DNA of 21,880 nt, from positions 1 to 21,880 of IMG/VR virus record IMGVR_UViG_3300031884_002044. One strand, 5' to 3'. Shown here one piece after another: positions 1-18,234 of the stretch. A program made the translations under genes and the position numbers. The notes beneath the pieces are model-generated. The model ran no database searches and had not been told where the DNA came from. It worked only from the letters and a program-made list of their open reading frames with translations. Within the stretch, counting starts at the first letter, position 1, and the number at the start of each line of letters is the position of its first letter. This DNA comes from a virus.

Positions 1-26
1 ACTGCGGAACCATTATTCTTAATCAT
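1..26 (-). CDS. 5' end of an unknown leftward gene, cut by the window edge
   Basis: Only about eight codons are visible (M-I-K-N-N-G-S-A), running off the left edge. I infer a gene because motif M (35-77) lies just upstream, as it does before five other leftward start codons. The ATG at 26 gives the same 15-nt spacing from the motif's GG as radC does. An in-frame ATG at 32 is also possible. Nothing can be said about the product. Confidence 0.35.
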
Positions 27-34
27 AATCATCT

Positions 35-77
35 ACCGTTGCCTTACGGATTTATTTTGGCATCTGGCTCGCCGGTT
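35..77 (-). promoter_or_regulatory. Motif M, copy 1 (start-codon-proximal conserved element)
   Basis: First of six copies of a ~44-nt sequence found immediately 5' of leftward start codons. On the minus strand it reads CCGGCGAGCCAGATGCC, AAAATAAATCC, GTAA, GG, CAACGG. The CC-GTAA-GG part can form a minimal hairpin with a GNRA loop. This copy lies between R copy 1 and the edge-truncated gene. Its function is unknown. Position suggests a translation-initiation, mRNA-processing or operator role. Confidence 0.6.
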
Positions 78-101
78 ATACTTAAATTACGGGCATTTAA
101 T

Positions 102-273
102 ATTGAGCCAGTCGGATAGTGTCAAGGGCGTATGTCAGTTTCTCAACCGGCAATTCGACTCCGCTCATTGTCCGGTTGGGAAACTGAATAAGCACGAAGT
201 GCCGGGAGGCGAAACGCTAAAAGAATAACTTGTTTCGCCGGACGGCCCTTTACATTTCCGGCTGGCGATCAAT
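102..273. ncRNA. Structured RNA element R, copy 1
   Basis: One of three related elements. The outer helix pairs 102-116 (ATTGAGCCAGTCGGA) with 257-273 (TCCGGCTGGC, then GATCAAT). AAGGGC near 125-130 pairs with GCCCTT near 246-250. An internal 15-bp hairpin pairs CAGTTTCTCAACCGG with CCGGTTGGGAAACTG across a variable loop, and a second hairpin pairs GGCGAAAC with GTTTCGCC. The stretch GCACGAAGTGCCGGGAGGC is identical in all copies. The element lies between the terminator of the 361-678 gene and motif M, so it may be a leftward leader or free-standing RNA. The sequence alone does not settle the strand. No known family was recognised. Confidence 0.6.
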
Positions 274-328
274 AACTTTGCCCCGAATTTGAGTGTAAAA
301 GGGTATTTCTCAGAAAAAAATCGAACAC

Positions 329-356
329 AAAAAAACCCTGATTAGAGGGTTTTTTC
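329..356 (-). terminator. Intrinsic terminator of the 361-678 gene
   Basis: AACCCT (334-339) pairs with AGGGTT (346-351), flanked by A-runs and T-runs on both sides. It therefore looks usable in both directions. It follows the small gene's stop codon by only a few bases on the minus strand. Confidence 0.75.
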
Positions 357-360
357 ATCT

Positions 361-678
361 TTAGAAGGGAAGATCGGCTACTTCATCGATGCTCTCCTTT
401 ACTTTTTTAGCCGGCCTTTTCATTTTCGGTTCCGGTTTGTTTTCTATTTCAGTTTCCGGTTCGTCGGTAACTTCTTCTTTGCGGCTTACATAGACTGTAA
501 ATTCGCGACCGAACTGGTCTGCTGTTTTCATTTTTGCAACTTCAAAAGTGGCGTAAGTTTCGCCGTTGAACTCGTAAGAGAGATCGTTCAGATCATCCAT
601 GTTTACGGTTACTTTGATAATTTGAAGACCTTCTACCTGTTTGCCTTTTCCTACAAAATGTTTTTGAAACTTTTTCAT
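361..678 (-). CDS. Small protein with SSB-like acidic C-terminal tip
   Basis: A 105-residue protein. It has a compact N-terminal domain of about 65 residues with alternating hydrophobic stretches (QIIKVTVNM, TYATFEVAKM, FTVYVSR), then a charged K/P/E-rich linker, and ends in EVADLPF. This ending resembles the DDLPF tip by which bacterial single-stranded DNA-binding proteins recruit partners. I do not see a standard OB-fold SSB sequence, so an SSB-like or DNA-metabolism role is inference. The ATG at 678 is chosen over an upstream one at 828 because the extension would run back through the conserved non-coding leader L1. The gene has its own leader and terminator, so it is probably monocistronic and possibly strongly expressed. 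Confidence 0.75.
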   Translation of the reverse strand: MKKFQKHFVGKGKQVEGLQIIKVTVNMDDLNDLSYEFNGETYATFEVAKMKTADQFGREFTVYVSRKEEVTDEPETEIENKPEPKMKRPAKKVKESIDEVADLPF

Positions 679-696
679 GATACTTAATTTTAAGTG

Positions 697-840
697 AAAA
701 TTATATGCAAGATTTTTAAAGGGTGTCACTGAAGGGCAGTCAAGAAACCGTGGAATACCGGAAGGAGGTAGGATAGAGGATATGCCGCGAAAGTTCTTGA
801 ATGAGGGGACCGTTACCGGATGGGGCATTCTATCTTCGCA
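697..840 (-). promoter_or_regulatory. Leader element L, copy 1
   Basis: A 144-bp element directly upstream of the SSB-tailed small gene and closely similar to 3302-3446. The block at 735-763 is identical over 29 nt in both copies (starts GGCAGTCAAGAAACCG). Also shared are ATATGC plus GCGAAAGTTCTT, GATGGGG, and a distal CTTCGCA that can pair with TGCGAA. At its gene-proximal end both copies share TGCATATAATTTT (minus strand), a possible -7 region. In this copy CCG-GTAA-CGG forms a GNRA hairpin on the minus strand. It is likely a promoter plus structured leader or a protein-binding region. Confidence 0.55.
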
Positions 841-1168
841 TTGAATTTGATTTAAAATATCAGTGAAATAGGATCAATCTACAGTTGGGAAAGGGTTAGG
901 TTAAGGGATCAATCCAAAGTTACCCCATGTATGAGCTGCTCTCTGCGGAAGATAATGGTGAAGACCACAAATTATTGCAAAAAAAAGCAGATCAGTTTGG
1001 GAATTGCCAGGATAAGTCGAAAAGGTGGTGACTAAACGGCTGAAAAATTACCGGACTAATAAAATTGCCGGATAGTAAGGGTTGCATTGAAGTTTACTGA
1101 TCCCTGTAAGATGAAAAAAAGCAATCAGGGTTTTACTAAGGGAGATTTACCCTGGGAGTTTTGTGGAA
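841..1168. other. Gene-free interval between leader L1 and the Zn-ribbon gene's terminator
   Basis: No convincing gene. A 34-codon plus-strand frame at 927-1031 (MYELLSAEDNGEDHK...) has a protein-like composition, but I see no ribosome site or neighbours supporting it, and it could be a remnant. TAACTTTG on the minus strand (915-922) matches the Bacteroidota -7 box, but no -33 TTG lies at the right distance. The interval presumably holds upstream control sequence for the leftward small gene. Confidence 0.4.
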
Positions 1169-1216
1169 CAAAAAAATACCGCCGTGCAGAGGTTTTCTTT
1201 ACCTCTTGCACAGCGG
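1169..1216 (-). terminator. Intrinsic terminator of the radC operon
   Basis: A strong hairpin at 1179-1216: CCG, GTGCA and AGGT on one side pair with ACCT, TGCAC and CGG on the other, with an A-rich loop. On the minus strand it is followed by a run of seven T (1169-1177 region). It starts within 10 nt of the stop codon of the 1223-1444 gene. Confidence 0.85.
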
Positions 1217-1222
1217 ATTAAA

Positions 1223-1444
1223 TTAATTGGCATAAGGATATCCACATCCATTGTAAACATCTTCGTCTGCAGCTGCAGACAGGAATTGCCGGTAAGAAGC
1301 ATCACCACAAGTCATGCAGAATACTTCTTTGGAGGAGGGCCAATAGTAGATATTGACACCTTTATCCAGTTTAGCCTTGCATTTTGAGCAGCAAGAGCTA
1401 AACTTCGCTTTGATCATTCGTGGATCATTGGCATATTGGGACAT
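1223..1444 (-). CDS. Small zinc-ribbon protein
   Basis: A 73-residue protein with CCSKC near residues 18-22 and CMTCG near residues 43-47, a two-CxxC zinc-ribbon pattern. These flank a short hydrophobic stretch (VNIYYWP), and the C-terminus is rich in Gly, Tyr and Asn. Similar very short Zn-ribbon proteins occur in Bacteroidota mobile elements beside ArdC/RadC genes, though I cannot name a family. It is the last gene of the radC operon, and its start overlaps the end of the upstream gene by 20 nt. Motif M copy 6 lies inside that upstream gene's 3' end. Role unknown; nucleic-acid or protein binding is possible. Confidence 0.75.
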   Translation of the reverse strand: MSQYANDPRMIKAKFSSCCSKCKAKLDKGVNIYYWPSSKEVFCMTCGDASYRQFLSAAADEDVYNGCGYPYAN

Positions 1445-1745
1445 CTGTTTTACCGACGCCTTTCGGATTTATTTTGGCTTCTGGCACGCCGTTGTTAGTA
1501 ATAAATTCATTTGATAATCTTAAGATATTAGCGCATTTATTTGAATTATAACTTCTTAGAAGCTTAACCCATTCACCGGTTAGTGTAATATTCGCTGAAA
1601 AGCTTTCAACTGTTTTGTAAAAAGTGCTGTCATAAGAAGGATTTTTATTGATGAATTCCTTCATATCCTTGATGATAGCGCGGTGTAACCGTTCAAATCT
1701 GCGCTGATAAAAAGACATTTCTTCCCGGAACTGATTTTCTGTCAT
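1425..1745 (-). CDS. Unknown 106-residue helical protein with motif-encoded C-terminus
   Basis: The protein begins MTENQFREEMSFYQRRFERL and is mostly charged and predicted helical (YQRRFERLHRAIIKDMKEFI). No domain was recognised. The ATG at 1745 is chosen because motif M copy 5 ends just upstream and a TGA from the motif's reading frame overlaps it (ATGA). Its last 20 or so codons read through motif M copy 6, giving the tail GVPEAKINPKGVGKT, so the C-terminus is set by the regulatory repeat rather than by the ancestral gene. It sits between the DUF6573 gene (61-nt gap) and the Zn-ribbon gene (overlap), so it is presumably co-transcribed with them. Confidence 0.65.
   Translation of the reverse strand: MTENQFREEMSFYQRRFERLHRAIIKDMKEFINKNPSYDSTFYKTVESFSANITLTGEWVKLLRSYNSNKCANILRLSNEFITNNGVPEAKINPKGVGKTDVPICQ
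1451..1493 (-). promoter_or_regulatory. Motif M, copy 6 (within the end of the upstream gene)
   Basis: On the minus strand it contains GGCGTGCCAGAAGCC, then AAAATAAATCC-GAAA-GG, then CGTCGGTAAAA before the Zn-ribbon gene's ATG at 1444. The GNRA loop sequence (GAAA) and the CC/GG flanks are kept. It is translated as the C-terminus of the preceding gene. Confidence 0.65.
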
Positions 1746-1752
1746 TGATTTA

Positions 1753-1796
1753 GCACCCTGCCCAGGGGACTTATTGTGGCTTCTGGCACGCCGGTT
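1753..1796 (-). promoter_or_regulatory. Motif M, copy 5
   Basis: On the minus strand: CCGGCGTGCCAGAAGCC, then ACAATAAGTCC, CCTG, GG, then GCTAAATCA and the ATG at 1745. The first half is conserved, the loop is not GNRA, but the CC...GG pairing is kept. It fills most of the 61-nt gap between the DUF6573 gene and the next gene. Confidence 0.6.
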
Positions 1797-1806
1797 AATT
1801 AATTTT

Positions 1807-2232
1807 CTAATCTTCATCCGGAAACAGGATCGTGATAGCCGGGGATGGATCATCCAGATCAAGCGGACCAATCACTGCTCTGAGGGTAACTTCTCTAAGC
1901 TGCCGGTTTCCTTCGCAAACTTTCTCGTATTTGGTCCAATCACCTTTATCGGGAAGCTGGCAACAGAACCCAAATTTCAATTCTTCCCCTGAACATCTTC
2001 GGGCTGAGAGTGAAAACATATACAGGATATCCCAAAGCCGACCTTGTTCACTCTGATCAGGCATTTCAAAGGGAACCAGAACATACTTGTCATAAACTCT
2101 GCGTGTAAGAAAAACGGGAAATTTGATTCCTGCCTCTTTGGAAATATCCGGACTAATGGGTACCTGAATTCCATCGGCAACAGCTTCCATCCGGGTGTAA
2201 CTTGCAATAATTTTCCAATCGATTAAATCCAT
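1807..2232 (-). CDS. DUF6573 family protein
   Basis: A 141-residue protein that matches what I recall of DUF6573, found in plasmids, ICEs and phages. Recognisable features are an N-terminal 'IIASYTRMEAVADGIQVPIS' type segment, 'KEAGIKFPVFLTRRVYDKYV', the central 'GRLWDILYMFSLSARRC', and the C-terminal 'LRAVIGPLDLDDPSPAITILFPDED'. The molecular function is not established; accessory-element genes of this family usually lie beside ArdC, RadC or replication genes, as here. The ATG at 2232 is preferred to an in-frame GTG at 2277, because the extra 15 codons are simply motif M copy 4. Second gene of the radC operon, 65 nt after radC. Confidence 0.75.
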   Translation of the reverse strand: MDLIDWKIIASYTRMEAVADGIQVPISPDISKEAGIKFPVFLTRRVYDKYVLVPFEMPDQSEQGRLWDILYMFSLSARRCSGEELKFGFCCQLPDKGDWTKYEKVCEGNRQLREVTLRAVIGPLDLDDPSPAITILFPDED

Positions 2233-2240
2233 AATTTTAT

Positions 2241-2284
2241 TGCCCGTGCCCTCGGGACTTATTTTGGCTTCTGGCACGCCGGTT
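2241..2284 (-). promoter_or_regulatory. Motif M, copy 4
   Basis: On the minus strand: ACCGGCGTGCCAGAAGCC, AAAATAAGTCCCGAGGG, CACGGGCAATAAAATT, then the ATG at 2232. The hairpin part reads CCC-GA-GGG or CC-CGAG-GG. It fills the gap between radC and the DUF6573 gene. The frame is open into the gene, so an extended protein is formally possible. Confidence 0.65.
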
Positions 2285-2297
2285 TGTAAATTTTAGT

Positions 2298-2741
2298 TTA
2301 AAGAATACCTTCATCTGCCATGGAGTAATAGCCTTCAGAGGAGAGAATCAGATGATCAAGCAGGGGAATTTCAAGGATAAGACCGGCCTCTTTGAGATTC
2401 TGGGTAATCTTTCGGTCTGCTGAACTAACATCCAGATTACCTGACGGGTGGTTATGTGCAACGATAATTGAAGTAGCACAGGCTTTGAGTGCAACCTGGA
2501 AAACAACCCGGATATCTATTATTGTTCCGGTCATCCCACCTTTGGAAATCTGATGATAACCAAGAACCTGGTTCTGGCGGTTAAGCATGAGCATGTACAT
2601 GAATTCAATGTGGTCATAAGCGGGCCAGAACAACTTGAAAGCGCAGTAGGATTCAGTTGACCCGGTAATTTTCATTCGGTCACGCGCTTTAATAATTGAA
2701 GAATACGAAATCTGAACTTCGGAGATAATCTCTGGAATCAT
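2298..2741 (-). CDS. radC: RadC-like JAB domain protein (putative Zn metalloprotease fold)
   Basis: A 147-residue short RadC-type protein lacking the N-terminal helix-hairpin-helix region of chromosomal RadC. The JAB/JAMM signature is clear: a Glu in EFMYMLMLN near residue 46, AHNHPSGN at about 95-102 and the Asp at about 109 (SSAD). The family's fold can bind zinc. Its role in RadC proteins is unsettled, and the old DNA-repair label is doubtful. Short versions are common in mobile elements of Bacteroidota. It is first in a four-gene leftward operon ending at the terminator 1169-1216. R copy 2 and motif M copy 2 lie directly upstream. The motif frame's TGA overlaps this ATG, which may couple translation. 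Confidence 0.85.
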   Translation of the reverse strand: MIPEIISEVQISYSSIIKARDRMKITGSTESYCAFKLFWPAYDHIEFMYMLMLNRQNQVLGYHQISKGGMTGTIIDIRVVFQVALKACATSIIVAHNHPSGNLDVSSADRKITQNLKEAGLILEIPLLDHLILSSEGYYSMADEGIL

Positions 2742-2748
2742 ACGTTTT

Positions 2749-2791
2749 GACCGCTGCCTTGCGGGTTTATTATGGCATCTGGCTCGCCGTT
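2749..2791 (-). promoter_or_regulatory. Motif M, copy 2 (before radC)
   Basis: On the minus strand: ACGGCGAGCCAGATGCC, ATAATAAACCC, GCAA, GG, CAGCGGTCAAAACGT, then the ATG at 2741. It has a GNRA loop (GCAA) between CC and GG. It is the 3' neighbour of R copy 2. Confidence 0.65.
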
Positions 2792-2816
2792 ACAGTTAAA
2801 TTAATGAGCTTACCAG

Positions 2817-2979
2817 ATTGAGCCGGGCGGATTCTGTCAAGGGCGCATGTCAGTTTCAAACCAGTTTGGACAGATAGATCCAGGAAAGTGACCGAGCACG
2901 AAGTGCCGGGAGGCGCTATGTCAAAACGTGACCTGCCAGGCGCCGGAAGGCCCTTTACTTTTCCGCTCCGGCGATCAAT
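2817..2979. ncRNA. Structured RNA element R, copy 2
   Basis: The outer helix pairs 2817-2831 (ATTGAGCCGGGCGGA) with 2962-2979 (TCCGC, bulged T, CCGGC, then GATCAAT). The GCCGG/CCGGC here replaces GCCAG/CTGGC of copy 1, a compensatory change. The invariant GTCAAGGGC and GGCCCTTTAC blocks pair at long range. A variable hairpin inside carries GTCA-AAACG-TGAC within a GGCGC/GCGCC closing stem. The element lies between the terminator at 3053-3080 and motif M before radC. The strand is not settled. Confidence 0.65.
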
Positions 2980-3052
2980 AAATTTGCTCACGAATTTGAG
3001 TGTAAAAGGAAACTTCCTCAAAAAAAAGACGAACAGCAGCGAATGAAAGGGC

Positions 3053-3080
3053 ATAAAAAAAACCTCCGGAGAGGTTTTAA
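3053..3080 (-). terminator. Intrinsic terminator of the 3097-3282 gene
   Basis: AACCTC (3061-3066), loop CGGA, GAGGTT (3071-3076), followed on the minus strand by eight T. It separates the small gene from R copy 2. Confidence 0.8.
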
Positions 3081-3096
3081 AGGAAAGTGAGAGAAG

Positions 3097-3282
3097 TTAA
3101 TTATTCTCATATTTTGCGAGAAGTTCTTCTGCTATCTTTTCTGTTAAATCAGGGTTTGAATCATATTCTTCATTTTCTGAATTCCAGGTGTTGATTGCAG
3201 AATCGGTGTTGTTTGTGTTCCAGTAATTAGATACTTTTTCATTTTTCGTCCGGTCTGATTGAGTTAAAAAAGAAGTTTTCAT
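3097..3282 (-). CDS. Small acidic, Asn-rich protein of unknown function
   Basis: A 61-residue protein, MKTSFLTQSDRTKNEKV..., with a low-complexity Asn/Thr/Ser middle and an acidic helical end (DLTEKIAEELLAKYENN). No family was recognised. The ATG at 3282 is chosen because the upstream extension would enter the conserved leader L2. It is not homologous to the 361-678 gene, yet both have leader L upstream and a terminator plus R element downstream. That shared frame supports it being a real expressed gene. Confidence 0.6.
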   Translation of the reverse strand: MKTSFLTQSDRTKNEKVSNYWNTNNTDSAINTWNSENEEYDSNPDLTEKIAEELLAKYENN

Positions 3283-3301
3283 GGTATAAAATTTAAGGGT
3301 A

Positions 3302-3446
3302 AAAATTATATGCATGGTCTTTAGGGGTGCCACAGAGAGGCAGTCAAGAAACCGTGGAATACCGGAATAAGTATAGGGAGTGAGGATATGCTGCGAAAGT
3401 TCTTTACTGAAGAGACTGGATCGTGATGGGGTACCCCACCTTCGCA
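3302..3446 (-). promoter_or_regulatory. Leader element L, copy 2
   Basis: A 145-bp counterpart of 697-840. The segment 3339-3367 is the 29-nt identical core. TGCATATAATTTT (minus strand) lies at the gene-proximal end. The distal TGCGAAGG...CTTTCGCA pairing is kept. Near the distal end GGTGGG-GTAC-CCCATC forms a hairpin not present in copy 1. It probably drives or controls the 3097-3282 gene. Confidence 0.55.
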
Positions 3447-3759
3447 GGGAATTTTCCTTAAATGCTATTACCTGAAATACTTTGGAGTTTGACAGACAGA
3501 AGTAAAAAATCAGAATCTAATCATGGAAAAAAACTGAGGATGCAGGAACTGGAAAAGGTAAAAAAGATAAGATGATTTATCGATATGGCAATCAATTAAT
3601 TGCAGAAGAAAAGATGAATAACGAAATAAAAAAGTGAGATTTAATTGCAATCTTTCTCAGAATTGAGACTGGAATAAAAAAATAAACCCCACATGAGCAA
3701 GGGGGCTCGGATTTAGATTAGGCTGGATTTTTAGGCTCGGCTGTAGCTATTGAACAGAT
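3447..3759. other. Gene-free interval upstream of leader L2
   Basis: AT-rich. It contains only short frames (for example a 21-codon plus frame, MIYRYGNQLIAEEK..., around 3570-3640) without support. I found no TAnnTTTG box, tRNA or repeat in it. It separates the R-M operon's terminator from leader L2. Confidence 0.4.
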
Positions 3760-4674: not shown

Positions 4675-7329
4675 TTATTCAATTAATTGCCCTACCTTAT
4701 TTACAACTCGATATTCCAGGCTGTCAAACTCATTAAAATGTGCTTTACCACACTTGATTTTAAGTTGTTCGTCTCCGCTAAGTTTGGATAAATCAACCCG
4801 CGGTGTTCCGGTATCTTTGGTTTCAGCAACGAAATAAATTTTCTTATCATCCTCAAAAACTAGGGCCCAATCAGGATTGTAATTACCTATTGGTGTAGGA
4901 ATTTTGAACCAATTTGGTAATTTAAAGTAAAACTTGACCTGGTCGCTGGTTTCACAATCTTTGGCAAATTGACTTTCAACTCCGGAGTCCAAAGGCATAA
5001 ACTCTTCATAAATGGTTTTGTTTGGGTCAGATACCTTGAATGAAAAATCATTGAGGTATACTTCTAATTCCTGTGCTTCAAACAATGCCATTTCGTATTC
5101 TGTAGTTCCAATTTTTTGATATTTTATGCCATCGATCATCAGTTCGAACAACGTTCGCTTAATGGTTTTTGAGGCTAAGTCTAAGAATAACTGAGGGTTA
5201 ATCAAAATGTCGTTGATTCTGCCCGATTTACTTAAGATCGCATGAATTGTCGATCTTGTTAATTCTGTTTTACTTTGAATGTATCCCAATACATCTGGGA
5301 TTTTCCAGGAGTAAGTGTCATAAGATTCAATTTTATCGCCTAAATAGGAAGTTCCTACACCTTCATCGGACATAGTTACAGATACTTTTGTCGAACGAAT
5401 TGAAGGGGATTTAATTTCGGGAATTTCATGAATTGCTTTCGATGCTAAATCGATAAGATCGTTTGTTAAATAATTAACCCGGTAAGTTGTTTTCTTTTTA
5501 ATCTTCTCCCAGATTTCAAGGAATTTTGGGTCTGCTTCAAAACCTTTCCGGTAATTAATTGCTGTCCGCTCGCGCTTATTTTTAATCCGACCTTTAAATT
5601 CAACTCCGCAATCGTCTTCAATCTCTTTTTGTAGGGCTTTGGCAAAATCGTCATAAGATTCATTGGCCACAACAGTCAGTCGGTTTATATTCTGGTCGTA
5701 AATCCTTTTGCCACTTTGATCGACTGCCAAACGTAAACCTCTGCCAATTTCCTGACGCTTCTTAATCTCTGATTTTGTTTCGTTTAGCGTACAGATTTGA
5801 AAAACATTTGGATTATCCCAACCTTCACGCAATGCAGAGTGGGAAAAGATAAAACGCAATGGATTCTCAATATCCAATAGTTTTTCCTTGTCTTTCATAA
5901 TCAGATTATATGTATCATCATCGGCTTGTGTTTCGCCGGATGTATCTTTCATTTTACCCTTTTTATCTTGCGAAAAATAGCCGTTATGAATTTGCTCTAT
6001 CGGGAATTTATCCAATGATTTAAAATGAGATTTAGAAACAAACTCTGCGTAAATTTCTTCAAACCATTTCGCAAACTTACCATGGCCTGGATTTCCGGCT
6101 TCATCGTATTGCCGATAGTTTACTACTCGGTCAATGAAGAAAAGTGATAACACTTTAATTCCTTTAGGATTCAGCCGAATTTCTTTTTTCAGGTGTTCTT
6201 CAACAGTTTTACGAATTTGGAATTTCATTACTTCATCCGTTAAACCACCCTGAGTGTCACCTTTGTACAGGATATTGCCATTCGAAAGTGAAATACAATT
6301 ATTTGCTGCATCAATTTCTTCAATGATGTAGCCTTCTGAATATATTTCCCGTTCATTTGATAGTTTATAAAGGTCATCGCCAACTTTGACGGCGACTGAT
6401 TTCTTCTTTACGCCTCCTGTATCGTTTGAATTAATTGTAAGCTTTGCTGTCACCTTTGTTTTAGTGGCGGTAATGGATTCAACAGACACGAAAGCATCAT
6501 TAAATGCATTTTCTTCAACAATGGAGTCAACCTCGATTTGTTTTACCAAACCAAGGTCATACGCTTTAACCGGATTAAGGCTGTATGTTAAATTGTATTG
6601 ATTTTTGTGGGTTGCAGAATAGCGTAGCGTGCAAAGTGGTTTTAAATTTTCGATGGCAGTTGCACGTTTCTCCGTTTCCATGTTTTGCGGTTCGTCAACA
6701 ATTACAAAGGGATTGGTCGATTGAATAAACTCAACCGGTCGTTGTCCGTTTAACTTATCGTTCGGTTTATTGATAATATTTTCATCTTTGGCAAAAGCAT
6801 CAATATTGATTACTAAAATCTCAATGTTATTACCCGTTGCAAAACCTCTTAGGGATGAGACTTTTGTGCTGTCATATACTTGAAAATGAACAGGAACATT
6901 ATCGTACAGATTTTGGAAATGCTCGTGCGTAATTTCAAGGTTTTTCAGAACCCCTTCACGGATAGCAACCGATGGAACAACAATTACAAATTTCTTGAAA
7001 CCATACTGCTTAAACAGTTCATAGATGGTTCTTAGGTACACATACGTTTTGCCTGTGCCTGTTTCCATTTCGACGGAAAAGTGCATCCCATCCAGCTGAT
7101 TGGCTTTGTTTATTTCATTTTCGATTTGAATTATCTGAAGATTCGAAAGGATTTGTTGCTCAGACAATATCAGGTTATTACCAACGCCGTTAATCAAACT
7201 TAAAGTTGCCTTTTCATTTAACTGATATTCGGTAATTGAATCTTCCATTGGCTGACCTTCAAACAAGCCAGTAATCGACTTTATGGCATCATCCTGGTAT
7301 TGGAGATTGGATTCGAAGGTTAGCTTCAT
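4675..7329 (-). CDS. res: Type III restriction enzyme, helicase/endonuclease subunit (Res)
   Basis: An 884-residue protein. Superfamily 2 helicase motifs: Walker A METGTGKT (88-95), a Walker B-like VIVDEPQNME (DEPQ instead of DEAH, 212-215), FSHSALREGWDNPNVFQI (495-511) and motif VI QEIGRGLRL (526-534). The C-terminus has a PD-(D/E)XK nuclease pattern: NPDWALVF (818-825) and FVAETKD (833-839). With Mod it forms the Type III complex, which translocates or signals along DNA and cuts near head-to-head unmethylated sites. It starts in a 4-nt ATGA overlap with the upstream nuclease gene, so the two are translationally coupled. All key motifs and full length are present, so it looks intact. Confidence 0.92.
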   Translation of the reverse strand: MKLTFESNLQYQDDAIKSITGLFEGQPMEDSITEYQLNEKATLSLINGVGNNLILSEQQILSNLQIIQIENEINKANQLDGMHFSVEMETGTGKTYVYLRTIYELFKQYGFKKFVIVVPSVAIREGVLKNLEITHEHFQNLYDNVPVHFQVYDSTKVSSLRGFATGNNIEILVINIDAFAKDENIINKPNDKLNGQRPVEFIQSTNPFVIVDEPQNMETEKRATAIENLKPLCTLRYSATHKNQYNLTYSLNPVKAYDLGLVKQIEVDSIVEENAFNDAFVSVESITATKTKVTAKLTINSNDTGGVKKKSVAVKVGDDLYKLSNEREIYSEGYIIEEIDAANNCISLSNGNILYKGDTQGGLTDEVMKFQIRKTVEEHLKKEIRLNPKGIKVLSLFFIDRVVNYRQYDEAGNPGHGKFAKWFEEIYAEFVSKSHFKSLDKFPIEQIHNGYFSQDKKGKMKDTSGETQADDDTYNLIMKDKEKLLDIENPLRFIFSHSALREGWDNPNVFQICTLNETKSEIKKRQEIGRGLRLAVDQSGKRIYDQNINRLTVVANESYDDFAKALQKEIEDDCGVEFKGRIKNKRERTAINYRKGFEADPKFLEIWEKIKKKTTYRVNYLTNDLIDLASKAIHEIPEIKSPSIRSTKVSVTMSDEGVGTSYLGDKIESYDTYSWKIPDVLGYIQSKTELTRSTIHAILSKSGRINDILINPQLFLDLASKTIKRTLFELMIDGIKYQKIGTTEYEMALFEAQELEVYLNDFSFKVSDPNKTIYEEFMPLDSGVESQFAKDCETSDQVKFYFKLPNWFKIPTPIGNYNPDWALVFEDDKKIYFVAETKDTGTPRVDLSKLSGDEQLKIKCGKAHFNEFDSLEYRVVNKVGQLIE

Positions 7330-8333
7330 TGTTTCAATGCCATTCGTTGATCAATTCTTTCTTTTGCTTCAACTAGCAACAGGTGCAATTTTTGTTCCAA
7401 TTCGATTTTAGGGGGGAGATCCGTCCAATATTCAGCAACTACAATGCTGTCTTTATGCATTTCAAGCAACTCAATTTGTTCGGTGCTTTTACCGGTACAA
7501 AGTATCAAACCAATGGGGCTGTTTTCATCTTCATGCCGATCGTATTTGTCGAGCCATTTAAGATAAAGTTCCATCTGCCCTTTATAAGCAGCCTTAAATT
7601 TCCCGATTTTTAATTCAATGGCAACCAGGCGTTTTAATTTTCTATGAAAAAAAAGCAAATCCAAATAAAAATCTTCGCTGTCGATTATCATACGCTTTTG
7701 GCGTTCAACAAAGGTAAATCCCTTGCCAAGTTCCAGAATAAACTGTTCCAGTTCCTTCAGGATTGCTGATTCCAAATCGTTTTCGAGATATCCCTCTTTA
7801 AGCCCCAAAAAGTCTAAAAAATAGGGATCTTTAAATGTATGTTGTAATTCAGGCATATTCAATGAAACTTGAACATTGGCTATCTCACCACGTTCGTAAG
7901 CTTTTTGCTCTATTTGTTTGCGGGTTTCTCTAATGCTCCAGTACTCTTCGGCAATTTTCTGTGCATAATACATTCTTGCCTCACTGCTTTTAATTGGCAA
8001 TAATTCCACAAAATGCGACCAACTCAATTGTTGTGCCAATGGCAAGACAATTTCGAAATCGGTAAAAAGTTCAGAAAACTGCATCATTCTGCGTAAATTT
8101 CTTTCCTCAAAGCTTTTCCCATAAACTTGTTTCAATTGTGTCGACACTGTCGACACAATCTCTTTTGCATATTCAGCTCGCTGATTATTAAGAATATGCT
8201 CGTTTATTTTTTTGCCAACTTGCCAATATACCAAAGTAATGGTGCTATTGACTTGTTTGACCAATTGATTTTTACCTTGTTCGATAATATGAGCAAGGTC
8301 GTGAAACAACATTACGTCTAAATGCATGCTCAT
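7326..8333 (-). CDS. DUF1016/YhcG-type PD-(D/E)XK nuclease domain protein
   Basis: A 335-residue protein. The N-terminal half is helical (DUF1016-N type; 'LVYWQVGKKINEHILNNQRAEY', 'FEERNLRRMMQF', 'LSWSHFVELLPIKS'). The C-terminal half carries the nuclease core SEDFYLDLLFFHRKLKRLVAIELKIG with Asp 225, Glu 240 and Lys 242. The family is a predicted nuclease, often found beside restriction-modification genes. It lies 2 nt after mod and overlaps res by 4 nt, an unusual insertion between the two core Type III subunits. This suggests it is an accessory to the system. An independent defence or regulatory function is equally possible. Confidence 0.85.
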   Translation of the reverse strand: MSMHLDVMLFHDLAHIIEQGKNQLVKQVNSTITLVYWQVGKKINEHILNNQRAEYAKEIVSTVSTQLKQVYGKSFEERNLRRMMQFSELFTDFEIVLPLAQQLSWSHFVELLPIKSSEARMYYAQKIAEEYWSIRETRKQIEQKAYERGEIANVQVSLNMPELQHTFKDPYFLDFLGLKEGYLENDLESAILKELEQFILELGKGFTFVERQKRMIIDSEDFYLDLLFFHRKLKRLVAIELKIGKFKAAYKGQMELYLKWLDKYDRHEDENSPIGLILCTGKSTEQIELLEMHKDSIVVAEYWTDLPPKIELEQKLHLLLVEAKERIDQRMALKQ

Positions 8334-8335
8334 CG

Positions 8336-10303
8336 TTATATGGTTTTAAATTCAATACCGGCATCTCTCATTTGCAATGCAGTATTGGTTTTCAATTGGT
8401 CGTTTCCGGTGAAAAGCCGGTCTAAAGCAATAACCTTTTGTGGTTGTTCTTTTAAAACTGAGTCCACAATCTCCTGCGTGGCTATTTCAAGCATAATAAC
8501 CAACTCATTGTCGTTAACGCAATAATACCCCAAGGTATCACTATGGGATGCCGGCTTGTGCTCTATCTTGCTATTCAGGTCTTTACCACTTTTAAGCAGC
8601 AATTCATAAACCATATTTTCAATGGTTGCAGATTCTGAAACCGGATCAACAAACAGTTTCATTTGTTCTTCAAGTGCATTGGCATCTTTACCAATAATTT
8701 GCTGCCATTGTTTAAAGTTACTGTCAGAGAGTTTTAGGACTTTAAAACCAGTATCCTGAACTTTAAGTTTTTCAATTTCAGAATTAAGATTTTTGATTTG
8801 TACAAGCACTTCTTCGGTTGGTAATTCACCCTCTAATTTTTGGATCTGGGATAGAAGGTCTGTAATTTTAGATTGTATTTCCATATTAATCACCACTGCA
8901 GCCCTACGAATTCGCTCTTTGGCTATATCCGCAATGGTCTTATAACCGTCTTTAAATGCTTCACTTTTTTCGTCACAAAGTTCTGGTAATTGCACGCAAA
9001 TATACTTGCGGTTGCCACCATCGTCTTTGTTCAAATCCATAAGAGCATGTGCGGTCGTACCAGAACCAGAGAAAAAGTCAAGAATAATATCAAATTCATT
9101 AATTACTTGTTTAAAAAATACTTTAAGTAGTTCTGTAGGTTTGGGAAAATCAAATAATTTATCTCCCATTAAATTGATTACTGCTCGGGTTCCATTCGTA
9201 GTAAAACCAACATCTTTAGAGTCAAGCCAAGTAGAAAATCCAGTGATATCTTTCTCAAGATCTTCAAGAAATTTTTTTTCTCGTGGTCTTCCGGTAGGAG
9301 ATTTTGGAAACAATATTTTTCCCTCACTAATCATTGATGTAATTGTTGAAGAAGACTTTGACCAACCTCTTTTGGGATTTGGTGGATAAGATATTCCAGT
9401 TTCTGGATCGATTAAATCATAATGTAAATTGGGTCTTTGGTCTATTGTAGCTAAGCCAGATAAATCTATACTCGCCCATGGCCCACGAGCATCGTTATCT
9501 GGATTTTTATATTTGGTTTTATCTATATCCCTTCCTCCAAATATAACAATATCAAGTTTGCCAAAGCATAATAAATACTCATGATCTGTTGAGACGTTAG
9601 ATTGATTTCTACTATCAGCATTTTGCCTTCTCTTCCATATGAATTGACCAATAAAATTCTCCTCCCCAAAAACCTCATTCATCAATAACCTCAGATTATG
9701 TACCTCGTTGTCATCGATAGAAACAAAAATAATACCATCTTCTTTCAATAAATTCTTTGCCATAAACATACGAGGATACATCATATTCAGCCAATTACTG
9801 TGGTATTGGCCGTTTTCTTTACTGTTCTTACGGAACATACCATCTTTGGTCATATAGCCTTCTTCGTCTTTGTCTCCTACACGTTTTAAGTATTCTTCTT
9901 TGGTTTCTGAGAATTTATCAGGATAAATAAAAGAATCGTTTCCAGTATTATAAGGTGGGTCAATGTATATCATCTTTACTTTACCGAAGTAACTTTTTTG
10001 CAATACTTTAAGCACTTCAAGGTTTTCGCCTTCAATAAAAATATTTTCAGTTTGGTCAAAGTTTACTGATTCTTCTTTAACAGGAATCAGGGTTCTTGTG
10101 CTCGACGCCTGCAATACTTTAAAAGCCTCGCTTTTGCCGGCCCAATTTAAAACGTAACGCTCGTTGCTAAAGGTAATATCTTCACCTAGTGTGGCTTTTA
10201 ACTTTTCCCAATCTATCTTTCCGTCGCTAAATGCCTCCGGTAAGAGTTCTTGTAATTGTTGTAGTTTAATTTTATTAGGGGTTAGGCTCTGTCCATCCAT
10301 CAT
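8336..10303 (-). CDS. mod: Type III DNA adenine-N6 methyltransferase (Mod)
   Basis: A 655-residue protein with beta-class motif order. The catalytic motif IV IDPPYNTGND (114-123) comes first and the SAM-binding motif I DFFSGSGTTAHA (409-420) comes later. The specificity region is in between, and a coiled coil-like segment (about 478-515) follows motif I. Mod recognises the target site, methylates one strand and directs Res. The start is ATG-ATG (MMDGQ); the outer ATG at 10303 is 23 nt from the predicted transcription start. First gene of the operon mod - DUF1016 nuclease - res - Bro-N. No truncation seen. Confidence 0.93.
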   Translation of the reverse strand: MMDGQSLTPNKIKLQQLQELLPEAFSDGKIDWEKLKATLGEDITFSNERYVLNWAGKSEAFKVLQASSTRTLIPVKEESVNFDQTENIFIEGENLEVLKVLQKSYFGKVKMIYIDPPYNTGNDSFIYPDKFSETKEEYLKRVGDKDEEGYMTKDGMFRKNSKENGQYHSNWLNMMYPRMFMAKNLLKEDGIIFVSIDDNEVHNLRLLMNEVFGEENFIGQFIWKRRQNADSRNQSNVSTDHEYLLCFGKLDIVIFGGRDIDKTKYKNPDNDARGPWASIDLSGLATIDQRPNLHYDLIDPETGISYPPNPKRGWSKSSSTITSMISEGKILFPKSPTGRPREKKFLEDLEKDITGFSTWLDSKDVGFTTNGTRAVINLMGDKLFDFPKPTELLKVFFKQVINEFDIILDFFSGSGTTAHALMDLNKDDGGNRKYICVQLPELCDEKSEAFKDGYKTIADIAKERIRRAAVVINMEIQSKITDLLSQIQKLEGELPTEEVLVQIKNLNSEIEKLKVQDTGFKVLKLSDSNFKQWQQIIGKDANALEEQMKLFVDPVSESATIENMVYELLLKSGKDLNSKIEHKPASHSDTLGYYCVNDNELVIMLEIATQEIVDSVLKEQPQKVIALDRLFTGNDQLKTNTALQMRDAGIEFKTI

Positions 10304-11382: not shown

Positions 11383-11391
11383 GTATTTTTT

Positions 11392-11435
11392 GCCGTTTAC
11401 CTTACGGACTTATTTTGGCATCAGGCACGCCGGTT
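11392..11435 (-). promoter_or_regulatory. Motif M, copy 3 (before ardC)
   Basis: On the minus strand: ACCGGCGTGCCTGATGCC, AAAATAAGTCC, GTAA, GG, TAAACGGCAAAAAATAC, then the ATG at 11382. It has a GNRA loop (GTAA) between CC and GG. Its own reading frame hits a stop inside the motif, which argues against a coding role. Confidence 0.65.
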
Positions 11436-11456
11436 AAACTTTATTGGGCAATAAAG

Positions 11457-11617
11457 ATTGAGCCAGGCGGATTCTGTCAAGGGCAAATGTCAGTTTCGGC
11501 ACACGTATAAATGTTGATTTTAAGAAAGTGACCAAGCACGAAGTGCCGGGAGGCGGTATGACAAAACTTGTCATAGTATAGCCGGACGGCCCTTTACTTT
11601 TCCGCCCGGCGATCAAT
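11457..11617. ncRNA. Structured RNA element R, copy 3
   Basis: The outer helix pairs 11457-11471 (ATTGAGCCAGGCGGA) with 11601-11617 (TCCGCCCGGC, then GATCAAT); one A/C mismatch is flanked by GGCGGA/TCCGCC and GCC/GGC. The variable hairpin ATGACA-AAACT-TGTCAT sits inside GGC/GCC. The invariant GCACGAAGTGCCGGGAGGC and GGCCCTTTAC are present. Beside it, CTTTATTG-GG-CAATAAAG (about 11439-11456) forms an extra hairpin toward motif M. It precedes ardC on the minus strand. The strand is not settled. Confidence 0.65.
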
Positions 11618-11639
11618 AAATTTGGCCAAGAATGAGTAA

Positions 11640-12154
11640 CCATTTACACTTTAAACTGTAACTTGTTTTTCGTTTCTTTTTGCCAGTTGAAAATTAAAGA
11701 ATATTAAATGAATAAAATATTGCATTCACAATTTACATAATATATGAATAAATAGGAATATTTAAAGAAAGGATTTTGAAAAAATTCTTTCTTTAAAAAA
11801 GAAGAATTGCAGAAAAACTCCATTATTTGGAGTTTGGTTTATTATTTCTTAAAACTTTATCTTCTAATTCTGTGGGGGCAAATTTCATATTGAAATTTGC
11901 CCCCACAGAATTAGAAGTCCCCCAATGACCTATCCGGGTCGTCGGGGCTCAAAGAGTTTCGATAGGATATATGATATTAACATAATGTAAATAAATAGTT
12001 CATAATAAAAAAAGAGAAGAAAAACTTTAAAATAAAGTGAGTCCTATACGAATTACGAAGTAAGAGGAAGAAAATCTGACTTGGTTGGCGTCCAGTTTAT
12101 TTGTCCTTTAACAGATACGAATTGAATAATATTTTTAGTCCTAAAATTGTAAGA
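11640..12154. promoter_or_regulatory. Divergent intergenic control region, rich in inverted repeats
   Basis: AT-rich, no gene seen, between leftward ardC/R3 and the rightward virion operon. It contains an 11-bp inverted repeat (11761-11771 / 11787-11797), an 8-bp hairpin (11815-11822 / 11828-11835), a perfect 27-bp inverted repeat (11861-11917) and a hairpin with possible pseudoknot (11919-11966). No perfect TAnnTTTG box was found for the rightward operon; the nearest is TTTATTTG about 12095-12102. It is likely to hold operators, late promoters or a packaging/replication site. Confidence 0.5.
11861..11917. repeat. Perfect 27-bp inverted repeat with 3-nt centre
   Basis: The left arm 11861-11887 (CTTCTAATTCTGTGGGGGCA...) is exactly complementary to the right arm 11891-11917, with TAT between. 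It can form a long hairpin or cruciform. No T-run follows on either strand, so it is not a typical terminator. Confidence 0.9.
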
Positions 12155-16872: not shown

Positions 16873-18234
16873 TTAGCAACACCCTTTTGCAGGAGCTTGA
16901 ATTACCTTTACAATAACTTTTGGTCCCTCCGAAGCACCTCCAGCACAACCGCCACATAGCCCAATTAAGCACATACAACCACAACAACTTGCACATGGGC
17001 ATCCATTCGCCATATCTGTCGCAGCATGGCCATTTGAACAAGTATCGCTACTGCCTTCTACTTTACAGCAATCATTAATGCATCCATCACAGCAAAAACC
17101 ACAACATGTACCACAGCAAGAGCAATGGTTTCCCCATTCAAAAAAATTACTGCAACAGTCGGCTTTATAGAGAGCATGGTTTTCAGCAGGAATCAAATGA
17201 GGGAATAAGATAAAAAGAAAAAGTAATGAAAAAGTAAGAATAGCAAAAGATAAATAGCGAATAATAATGTTTTTCCTTTTCAGTGAAATGATTCTGGCTG
17301 TGTTAATTGCAAATTGATAGCGCTCTTTTATTGAAAAAATTTTGTTTGTGCAATTCTTCAAAGTAGAACAACATTTTTTTGGTGCAATTTTATTATTAAT
17401 ATTCAAAAGAAGATTATTAATAAATGTTTTTTGTTTAGTTTCAGGAATTGGCAGGAGGTAAATAGACTTCTTAATTCTATCAAGTTGTTCATAAATAAAT
17501 GATGCAGCTGACTCAATTAAATTTGATTTGTCAGTCAGATTGTAAAGTAGAAATAAATTGAACCCTCTTCTCTTTTTATCTTTCTCATAGTCCTCAATTG
17601 CATCTATAAGATACACAATTTTTCCAAAATTTGCCCCGATCTTCCAAAAGGTTTTTGATAATTGTTCGTCATTAAATCTTGCAACACTCTGTTTAAATAC
17701 CAATCCAGTAATTTGCGCTGTTTGATTTGAGTAATAACTTAATGTTTCATAGAAATCTGGAAATATAACCTTTTGCTTTTCACGATTAAATTGTTCAAGT
17801 ACTTGTTTTTCAATAATATCTACATGTAGGTTTTGTTCGATTAGATATTTTTTTGCACTTTTAAAATTTGAATTGGTTAAGTATTTAAATAATGTCCAGA
17901 TATTTAATTTTTGCTTAGAGTCATTTATGTTGTCTACAATTTTGAAATGTCCAAGCAAAATGTTTATTGATGCAGTGTATTTTAGAAAATGTGGAATTTG
18001 CTCTTCTTTTTCTGGTAATGTCCAGCAAGTAAAAGGTTTGATGTAAATGAAGTCCTCTTTACAATTATTTACTGTCGCTAATAATTCGCTAAGGAAAACA
18101 ACATCAAAGTTTAACAGTACTCTTTCTTTATGTCCATATAGTTTGCCTATTGTTTTGCAAGTTCCACAGTAGTTTATGCGGAAATCATAATTCTCCTCTG
18201 TAGTTAATTTTCTATTTTGCAATAGTCCGAACAT
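16873..18234 (-). CDS. DUF5685 family protein with transmembrane segment and cysteine-rich tail
   Basis: A 453-residue protein. The N-terminal MFGLLQNRKLTTEENYDF, YCGTCKTIGKLYGHKERVLLNFDVVFLSELL (20-52) fits DUF5685. LIDAIEDYEKDKKRRGFN (209-226) resembles the second Asp-rich motif of squalene/phytoene synthase-type folds, an inference that does not prove catalysis. A hydrophobic segment at about 324-348 is a likely membrane anchor. After it come 23 cysteines in about 100 residues (CSCCGTCCGFCCDGC type clusters), suggesting metal binding or disulfide packing. It is opposite in direction to the virion genes, more AT-rich, and flanked by non-coding DNA, so it is probably horizontally gained cargo. 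Function unknown. Confidence 0.75.
   Translation of the reverse strand: MFGLLQNRKLTTEENYDFRINYCGTCKTIGKLYGHKERVLLNFDVVFLSELLATVNNCKEDFIYIKPFTCWTLPEKEEQIPHFLKYTASINILLGHFKIVDNINDSKQKLNIWTLFKYLTNSNFKSAKKYLIEQNLHVDIIEKQVLEQFNREKQKVIFPDFYETLSYYSNQTAQITGLVFKQSVARFNDEQLSKTFWKIGANFGKIVYLIDAIEDYEKDKKRRGFNLFLLYNLTDKSNLIESAASFIYEQLDRIKKSIYLLPIPETKQKTFINNLLLNINNKIAPKKCCSTLKNCTNKIFSIKERYQFAINTARIISLKRKNIIIRYLSFAILTFSLLFLFILFPHLIPAENHALYKADCCSNFFEWGNHCSCCGTCCGFCCDGCINDCCKVEGSSDTCSNGHAATDMANGCPCASCCGCMCLIGLCGGCAGGASEGPKVIVKVIQAPAKGCC

Follow-up and report, generated by a model that had tools for sequence, protein, structure and literature searches.

The viral contig IMGVR_UViG_3300031884_002044 (IMG/VR; 21,880 nt, analysed over the full 21.9 kb and referred to below as the window) raises the question of why the same series of non-coding elements recurs in front of unrelated small genes. 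Placement of the elements by a repeat search of the window and by iterated profile searches gave two copies of an element L, three of R and six of M, all on the minus strand, and the direct repeats D1–D12 and D15 from the repeat search were consistent with the profile-placed copies. As the original prediction had described, the order in both blocks is L, a small gene, a G+C hairpin with a T-run, R, M and then the first gene of an operon, and the unit at ardC consists of R and M without L. The placement given there held with small corrections, in that the starts of L are near 3456 and 849 and the contig end truncates the first gene of block 1. Absent from that description was the occurrence of M upstream of all four radC-operon genes (radC, a DUF6573 gene, a 106-aa open reading frame (ORF) and a gene for a 73-aa CxxC protein). 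The prediction had offered two explanations, recombination among conserved non-coding sequences or a selected regulatory architecture. Our analysis makes it reasonably probable that the module is a fixed expression cassette for the establishment (early counter-defence) genes of Bacteroidales mobile elements, in which R would be a hairpin promoter, L probably a second one, and M an element that positions or gates the ribosome.

The module was also found in other elements; its absence from them would have counted against the prediction. A pattern search for M yielded 11 viral contigs and 88 genome-contig stretches, nearly all from Bacteroidales, and a covariance model (CM) search gave 216 M copies in 100 sources, with profile matches to R (99) and L (53) in the same loci. 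The joint recurrence of L, R and M across dozens of Bacteroidales contigs shows that their repetition is not due to chance. M is rare in the phylum as a whole, where strict filters left it in 1 of 296 sampled genomes; in one family it is common (12 of 41). Among the 319 elements of the 72 loci containing at least two, a single strand was used per locus, with zero exceptions.

R, a hairpin with promoter boxes

R is an imperfect inverted repeat of approximately 200 nt, with arms 130–150 nt apart; the 64-copy alignment shows a variable central part flanked by a conserved block at the 5' and at the 3' end. On the strand complementary to the genes its first block reads CCCTTKAC-TTTTCCGG-nn-GGCGATCAATAnnTTTG. 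Nearly invariant within it are the TA and TT of TAnnTTTG, which we take to be the -7 box of Bacteroidota promoters; a TTKAC box lies 18–20 nt off. TTKAC-N18-20-TAnnTTYG was present on this non-template arm in 74 of 86 copies, compared to 0.16% of random 54-mers, and boxes of the Bacteroidota form stand on the gene-complementary strand of all three R copies in the window. A strict R pattern (GCCTCCCGGCACTTCGTGCT) gave no match in the viral contigs, as the loop of R is variable.

The opposite (right) arm carries TTGAC in every copy (86/86) and the -7 box in none (0/86). The arms pair at 86% across the -33 box and at 85% immediately ahead of the -7 box; over the A-n-n of the latter, pairing fell to 32–36%, and beyond the box it was 81%. 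When folded as single-stranded DNA (ssDNA), 40 R copies had a median z of -3.35, compared to -0.85 for random windows, and both the inner hairpins and the arms retain their pairs via two-sided changes. Wobble cells in the arms were balanced (GT 6, AC 7; small counts), whereas those of M were biased as in RNA (GT 15, AC 5), so that R resembles folded DNA and M folded RNA. Wobble pairs without RNA bias and promoter boxes within the arms led us to abandon the idea of R as a transcribed leader RNA.

Known ssDNA promoters of the Frpo type fold such that promoter boxes are rebuilt ahead of leading-region genes (PMC9849209, PMC11541004). Judged from its sequence, the anatomy of R is that of these promoters, and R is best read as a putative ssDNA-type hairpin promoter. 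With the gene-complementary strand single, R would fold, its left arm giving the non-template strand with the Bacteroidota -33/-7 promoter and its right arm the template strand, which would be mismatched across the -7 box and run on into the genes. In duplex DNA, where the right arm lacks a -7 box, sense transcription from R should be off.

M, a folded RNA at start codons

M is a 39-nt RNA with two covarying hairpins, the loops of which are able to kiss. The fold comprises stem 1 (3 base pairs), stem 2 (5 base pairs, one bulge) and a loop-loop helix (3 base pairs), with 97% of cells paired over 94 aligned copies. Two-sided changes numbered 125, compared to 38 ± 10 in shuffles, and the covariation score was 0.296, compared to at most 0.062 for slid controls. 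Most of the covariation came from stem 2, the 3' half of which lies outside the search pattern, while stem 1 had three two-sided changes. The loop and linker residues (GA, AUAA) are highly conserved.

The end of M lay 7–9 nt from the start codon in 196 of 201 genes, which fall into 38 sequence clusters. An unguided start scan placed 180 of 205 at the same distance; of random sites, 2.9% had an ATG-ORF within 5–19 nt. In four loci (L009, L020, L025 and L047) the RadC genes have a TTG at the M spacing and, if this assignment is right, M could help start-codon annotation. The M copy before the 73-aa gene (1450–1496, minus strand) is situated inside the 3' coding end of the 106-aa ORF and is translated there as NNGVPEAKINPKG. 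In gut Bacteroides and relatives (L090 3804–3850, Phocaeicola vulgatus ATCC 8482; L044, L078, L016 and L026), M was also found without R or L, before a gene of approximately 300 aa that matched nothing in Pfam.

Like a Shine-Dalgarno site, M is located shortly upstream of the start codon; unlike one, it is a folded element, its consensus has no AGGAGG, and the spacer to the ATG is A-rich and G-poor. Bacteroidota seldom use Shine-Dalgarno sequences (PMC6847099), which together with the fixed location of M at that position suggests ribosome positioning or gating. The transcripts would carry M before nearly all start codons, and M, most likely positioning or gating the ribosome, may replace the ribosome-binding sequence mostly missing in these bacteria. 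A bolder and tentative proposal, to which we give considerably less credence, is that M is the founding member of an RNA class replacing Shine-Dalgarno: a portable kissing-hairpin module docking the ribosome 7–9 nt upstream of start codons in Bacteroidota mobile elements, operating with hairpin promoters (ssDNA or extruded) to let invading DNA be transcribed and translated before the genes of the host.

Rfam contained no match for M, and scans of the window yielded sub-threshold chance matches only. By core layout the nearest known RNA is DUF805b (RF02914, clan CL00115), with which M shares the order GGCG-GCC-GA-GCC...GGCA and a GCC in a loop, for which a GGC further downstream could be the partner. 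In M, unlike DUF805b, this GGC is presented by a second covarying hairpin, and the start codon follows at a fixed 7–9 nt. The M copies gave no match to the DUF805 and DUF805b Rfam models at E up to 10 (window block and L006) or up to 1 (five loci). One DUF805b RNA scored above the gathering score in L006 (3504–3537, minus strand), near an M cluster at a separate site, and was the sole such match.

L, its slot genes and the carriers of the module

For every L copy the gene that follows was identified; it proved to be either gene A, with an ending like that of single-stranded-DNA-binding protein (SSB), or one of the 50–61-aa genes B1 and B2, the exceptions being one copy before a 100-aa ORF (L067) and one without a gene. 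The B slot is filled by B1 or B2 according to lineage, and gene A was present in all lineages sampled. The tandem L-A-L-B-R-M is common among the elements, while others carry two separate units as the window does. Profile comparison showed B1 and B2 to be unrelated, and likewise A and B1 (hhalign probability 0.4%), as the prediction had stated for the two small genes of the window. Protein A has a small predicted beta domain, a disordered linker and an SSB-like C-terminal tip (..ADLPF); in most members the ending is D-[DE]-[LI]-P-F or closely similar. The AlphaFold model of a relative was beta-rich (predicted local distance difference test score 73.8) with no clear structural match. Protein A had no Pfam match and, as a weak negative with the middle stretch of the query partly guessed, no plasmid match; the B1 protein had no trusted Pfam match.

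The arms of L are complementary (AAATTCTATGCAAAG / CTTGCATATAATTT and TCAAGGA / TCCTTGA), and its folding as ssDNA gave a median z of -2.13, compared to -0.85 for controls. L is probably a second hairpin promoter, differently built from R and less clear, which would drive the two small genes. The two L copies of the window have a similarity of 0.75, compared to medians of 0.64/0.66 for same-slot copies elsewhere, a trend limited to some (B1) lineages, and R copies are slightly more similar within a locus (0.661 vs 0.619). Such likeness within an element fits homogenisation or co-adaptation, and the non-coding parts have likely been partly homogenised without gene shuffling.

The carriers are of two kinds. 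Integrative and conjugative elements (ICEs) were recognised by TraG, TraM, DUF4138, relaxase and ArdC, and in 12 of 13 ICE contigs the relaxase and the genes behind R and M are on the same strand (p 0.0017). Phage carriers have a portal 66–99% identical to that of the window, along with tail, endolysin and radC genes. The genes behind M include ArdC, ArdA, RadC, RecT, a YspA-type SLOG protein, a DnaJ-like protein, DUF6573 and DUF4326. R lies upstream of ArdC, RadC and other early genes, as is the gene context of Frpo, with the SSB-tailed gene in the same cassette behind L; the genes behind R-type elements (SSB-tailed, ardC, radC) are of the leading-region type. The features of the window are collected in Table 1.

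Table 1. Elements and genes of the module in the window (CM, covariance model)
Feature	Position	Strand	Basis or remarks
L, unit 2, upstream of B1	3288..3456	-	nhmmer E 1.4e-34, iterated L profile; alignment A4
Small gene B1, 61 aa, acidic, core TDSAINTWNSENEEY	3097..3282	-	homologues behind L in 11 other loci
Intrinsic terminator 3' of B1, AAAACCTC-TCCG-GAGGTTTTTTTT	3054..3078	-	direct reading
R, unit 2, inverted-repeat hairpin	2806..3007	-	nhmmer E 3.1e-49; arm analysis
R unit 2 boxes: TTTAC, 20-nt spacer, TAAATTTG	2954-2958; 2979-2986	+	
M before radC	2748..2794	-	CM R1 62.0 bits
radC-like (JAB domain) gene, 147 aa, first of R2-M operon	2298..2741	-	PF04002 5e-36
M before DUF6573 gene	2240..2286	-	CM R1 71.0 bits
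DUF6573 gene, 141 aa	1807..2232	-	PF20213 9.7e-16
M before 106-aa ORF	1752..1798	-	CM R1 57.6 bits
106-aa ORF (MTENQFREEMSF...), M cluster 6	1425..1745	-	homologues behind M in other loci
M before 73-aa gene, overlapping end of 106-aa ORF	1450..1496	-	CM R1 61.7 bits
73-aa CxxC protein, M cluster 2	1223..1444	-	23 homologues, every one directly behind M
L, unit 1, upstream of gene A	687..849	-	nhmmer E 2.2e-35
Gene A, 105 aa	361..678	-	28 homologues behind L
Intrinsic terminator 3' of gene A	329..355	-	direct reading
R, unit 1	90..300	-	nhmmer E 1.6e-47; ssDNA fold -54.5 kcal/mol, z -7.9
R unit 1 boxes: TTTAC, 19-nt spacer, TAACTTTG	249-253; 273-280	+	
M before contig-end-truncated gene	33..79	-	CM R1 67.4 bits
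First gene behind R1-M, incomplete, M cluster 0 type	1..26 (ATG at 26)	-	direct reading; same gene in relatives L029, L030, L060
R, unit 3, no L	11446..11637	-	nhmmer E 4.4e-44
R unit 3 boxes: TTTAC, 19-nt spacer, TAAATTTG	11593-11597; 11617-11624	+	
M before ardC	11390..11437	-	CM R1 57.1 bits
ardC anti-restriction gene, 293 aa	10501..11382	-	PF08401 4.5e-30, PF18818 1.3e-32

Some neighbouring features of the window were also noted. A perfect 27-nt inverted repeat with a 3-nt loop (11861–11917), which separates the ardC unit from the phage structural genes, looks like a strong two-way terminator. The consecutive 655-, 335- and 884-aa ORFs at 4675–10303 (minus strand) resemble by eye a type III restriction-modification pair (mod, res) flanking a nuclease-like gene; they sit between the anti-restriction units and are followed by a Bro-N gene (PF02498, 3824–4663). 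Within the phage structural genes, a 453-aa protein with a cysteine-rich C-terminal part is encoded on the opposite strand (16873–18234, minus strand), with a marginal PHROGs match only.

Alternative readings and relation to known systems

The cargo exchange considered in the original prediction, with L and R as homologous flanks that recombine and swap unrelated small genes, is improbable. The non-homologous A and B1 behind similar L copies would fit it, as would the two unrelated B families sharing one slot and the greater likeness of L copies (and slightly of R copies) within an element in some lineages. However, the check proposed there, for L flanking variable small genes across elements, found only the slots A and B apart from the two exceptions above, A is conserved in all lineages, and recombination alone leaves the promoter boxes and conserved pairing of R unexplained. 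The order is conserved and the genes are set by their slot, so that neither architecture nor cargo varies freely, which favours the prediction's other proposal, a selected regulatory architecture. We also regard as unlikely that R is an ordinary duplex regulatory region, that is, a long inverted-repeat operator to which a dimeric regulator binds and whose left arm has an antisense promoter pointing outward. The left arm does hold a complete promoter in duplex form, directed away from the operon, and the phages have no obvious single-stranded entry stage. Against this, the inner hairpins covary, which requires single-strand folding, the right arm never carries the -7 box, at which the arm mismatch is concentrated, and an operator would have no need for arms so far apart with conserved inner hairpins between them. 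Phage N4 has early promoters that are tiny DNA hairpins read by its virion RNA polymerase. By comparison with these, R could be a hairpin promoter extruded from supercoiled duplex, a mechanism that would suit both phages and conjugative elements and in which SSB-like proteins, A among them, would be co-factors. Promoter boxes equally intact in phage-type (34/39) and ICE-type (18/20) copies, and the SSB-tailed gene in the same cassette, are consistent with such extrusion, but imperfect cruciforms of 200 nt with widely spaced arms should extrude poorly, and we consider it about as unlikely as the duplex operator.

Concerning M, the main rival to ribosome recruitment is that M is bound by a repressor or activator of translation which the element encodes and which co-ordinates an early regulon, a reading that deserves serious attention even though we lean away from it. 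One element before every gene of several operons resembles a regulon, and the L-driven A and B genes, which are without M, could encode the factor. On the other hand, M also precedes the approximately 300-aa gene in gut Bacteroides and Phocaeicola loci where neither R nor L was found, and the strict spacing over many gene families exceeds what an operator needs. An RNA-processing or riboswitch-type element, in which a ligand exposes or hides the structure, is improbable. The conserved GA and AUAA residues resemble an aptamer core, and the core as a whole resembles the cis-regulatory DUF805b RNA; the genes, however, have no metabolic theme, several copies occur per operon, and there is no expression platform besides the start-codon spacing.

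Several points weigh against the expression cassette as proposed here. Approximately half of the R copies, those of the window included, are in phage-type elements with portal and tail genes, which constitutes the main difficulty for a pure conjugation model: as these elements are without a known single-stranded stage, one has to invoke either extrusion from supercoiled DNA or some other role for R. Extrusion would be the simplest bridge between the phage and conjugation cases. The strand link in ICEs is with the relaxase gene, and a place of R in the leading region, with the transferred strand as template, is tentative. Relatedness of the copies inflates the cis-versus-trans test of the R arms (z -14). 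L has a weak -7 box (TAnnTTnG in 21 of 46 copies), the window L copy folds barely better than shuffles (z -1.2), and fold comparison of the model revealed no recognisable SSB fold in protein A. The kissing pairs of M are invariant, with the same GCC/GGC at all 50 places in a search that left the kissing bases free. They thus have no support from covariation, and this search neither supports nor rejects the pairing. Finally, M might influence translation as an enhancer or as an operator, and its effect might be to enhance or to repress.

The expression cassette resembles Frpo and ssi of the F and ColIb-P9 leading regions in having an imperfect hairpin that would rebuild two boxes and is repeated, on one strand, upstream of ssb-like and anti-restriction genes (PMC9849209, PMC11541004). 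It differs from them in its Bacteroidota-type boxes (TTKAC/TAnnTTTG), in the distinct designs of R and L, in the location of about half of the copies in phages and in the presence of M at each gene behind R. A search through the text of PMC11541004 gave no occurrence of Bacteroidota. Long conserved sequences are likewise repeated upstream of establishment operons in the pLS20 plasmid family, where they are termed EGeRS and where the transferred strand of pLS20 is the non-template strand (PMC8708921). The authors saw no promoter in the folded form of EGeRS (PMC8708921), whereas R has its boxes when folded. R shares with the phage N4 promoters the principle of a DNA-hairpin promoter in a phage, but is 200 nt long and has host-type boxes.

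If the proposed reading is true, ssDNA promoters reach the Bacteroidota, with the boxes of that phylum, and phages are shown to carry the same elements. M would offer a handle on the standing question of how Bacteroidota ribosomes find start codons without Shine-Dalgarno pairing. As search keys, R and M would mark early counter-defence genes, uncharacterised ones included, in gut and environmental elements.

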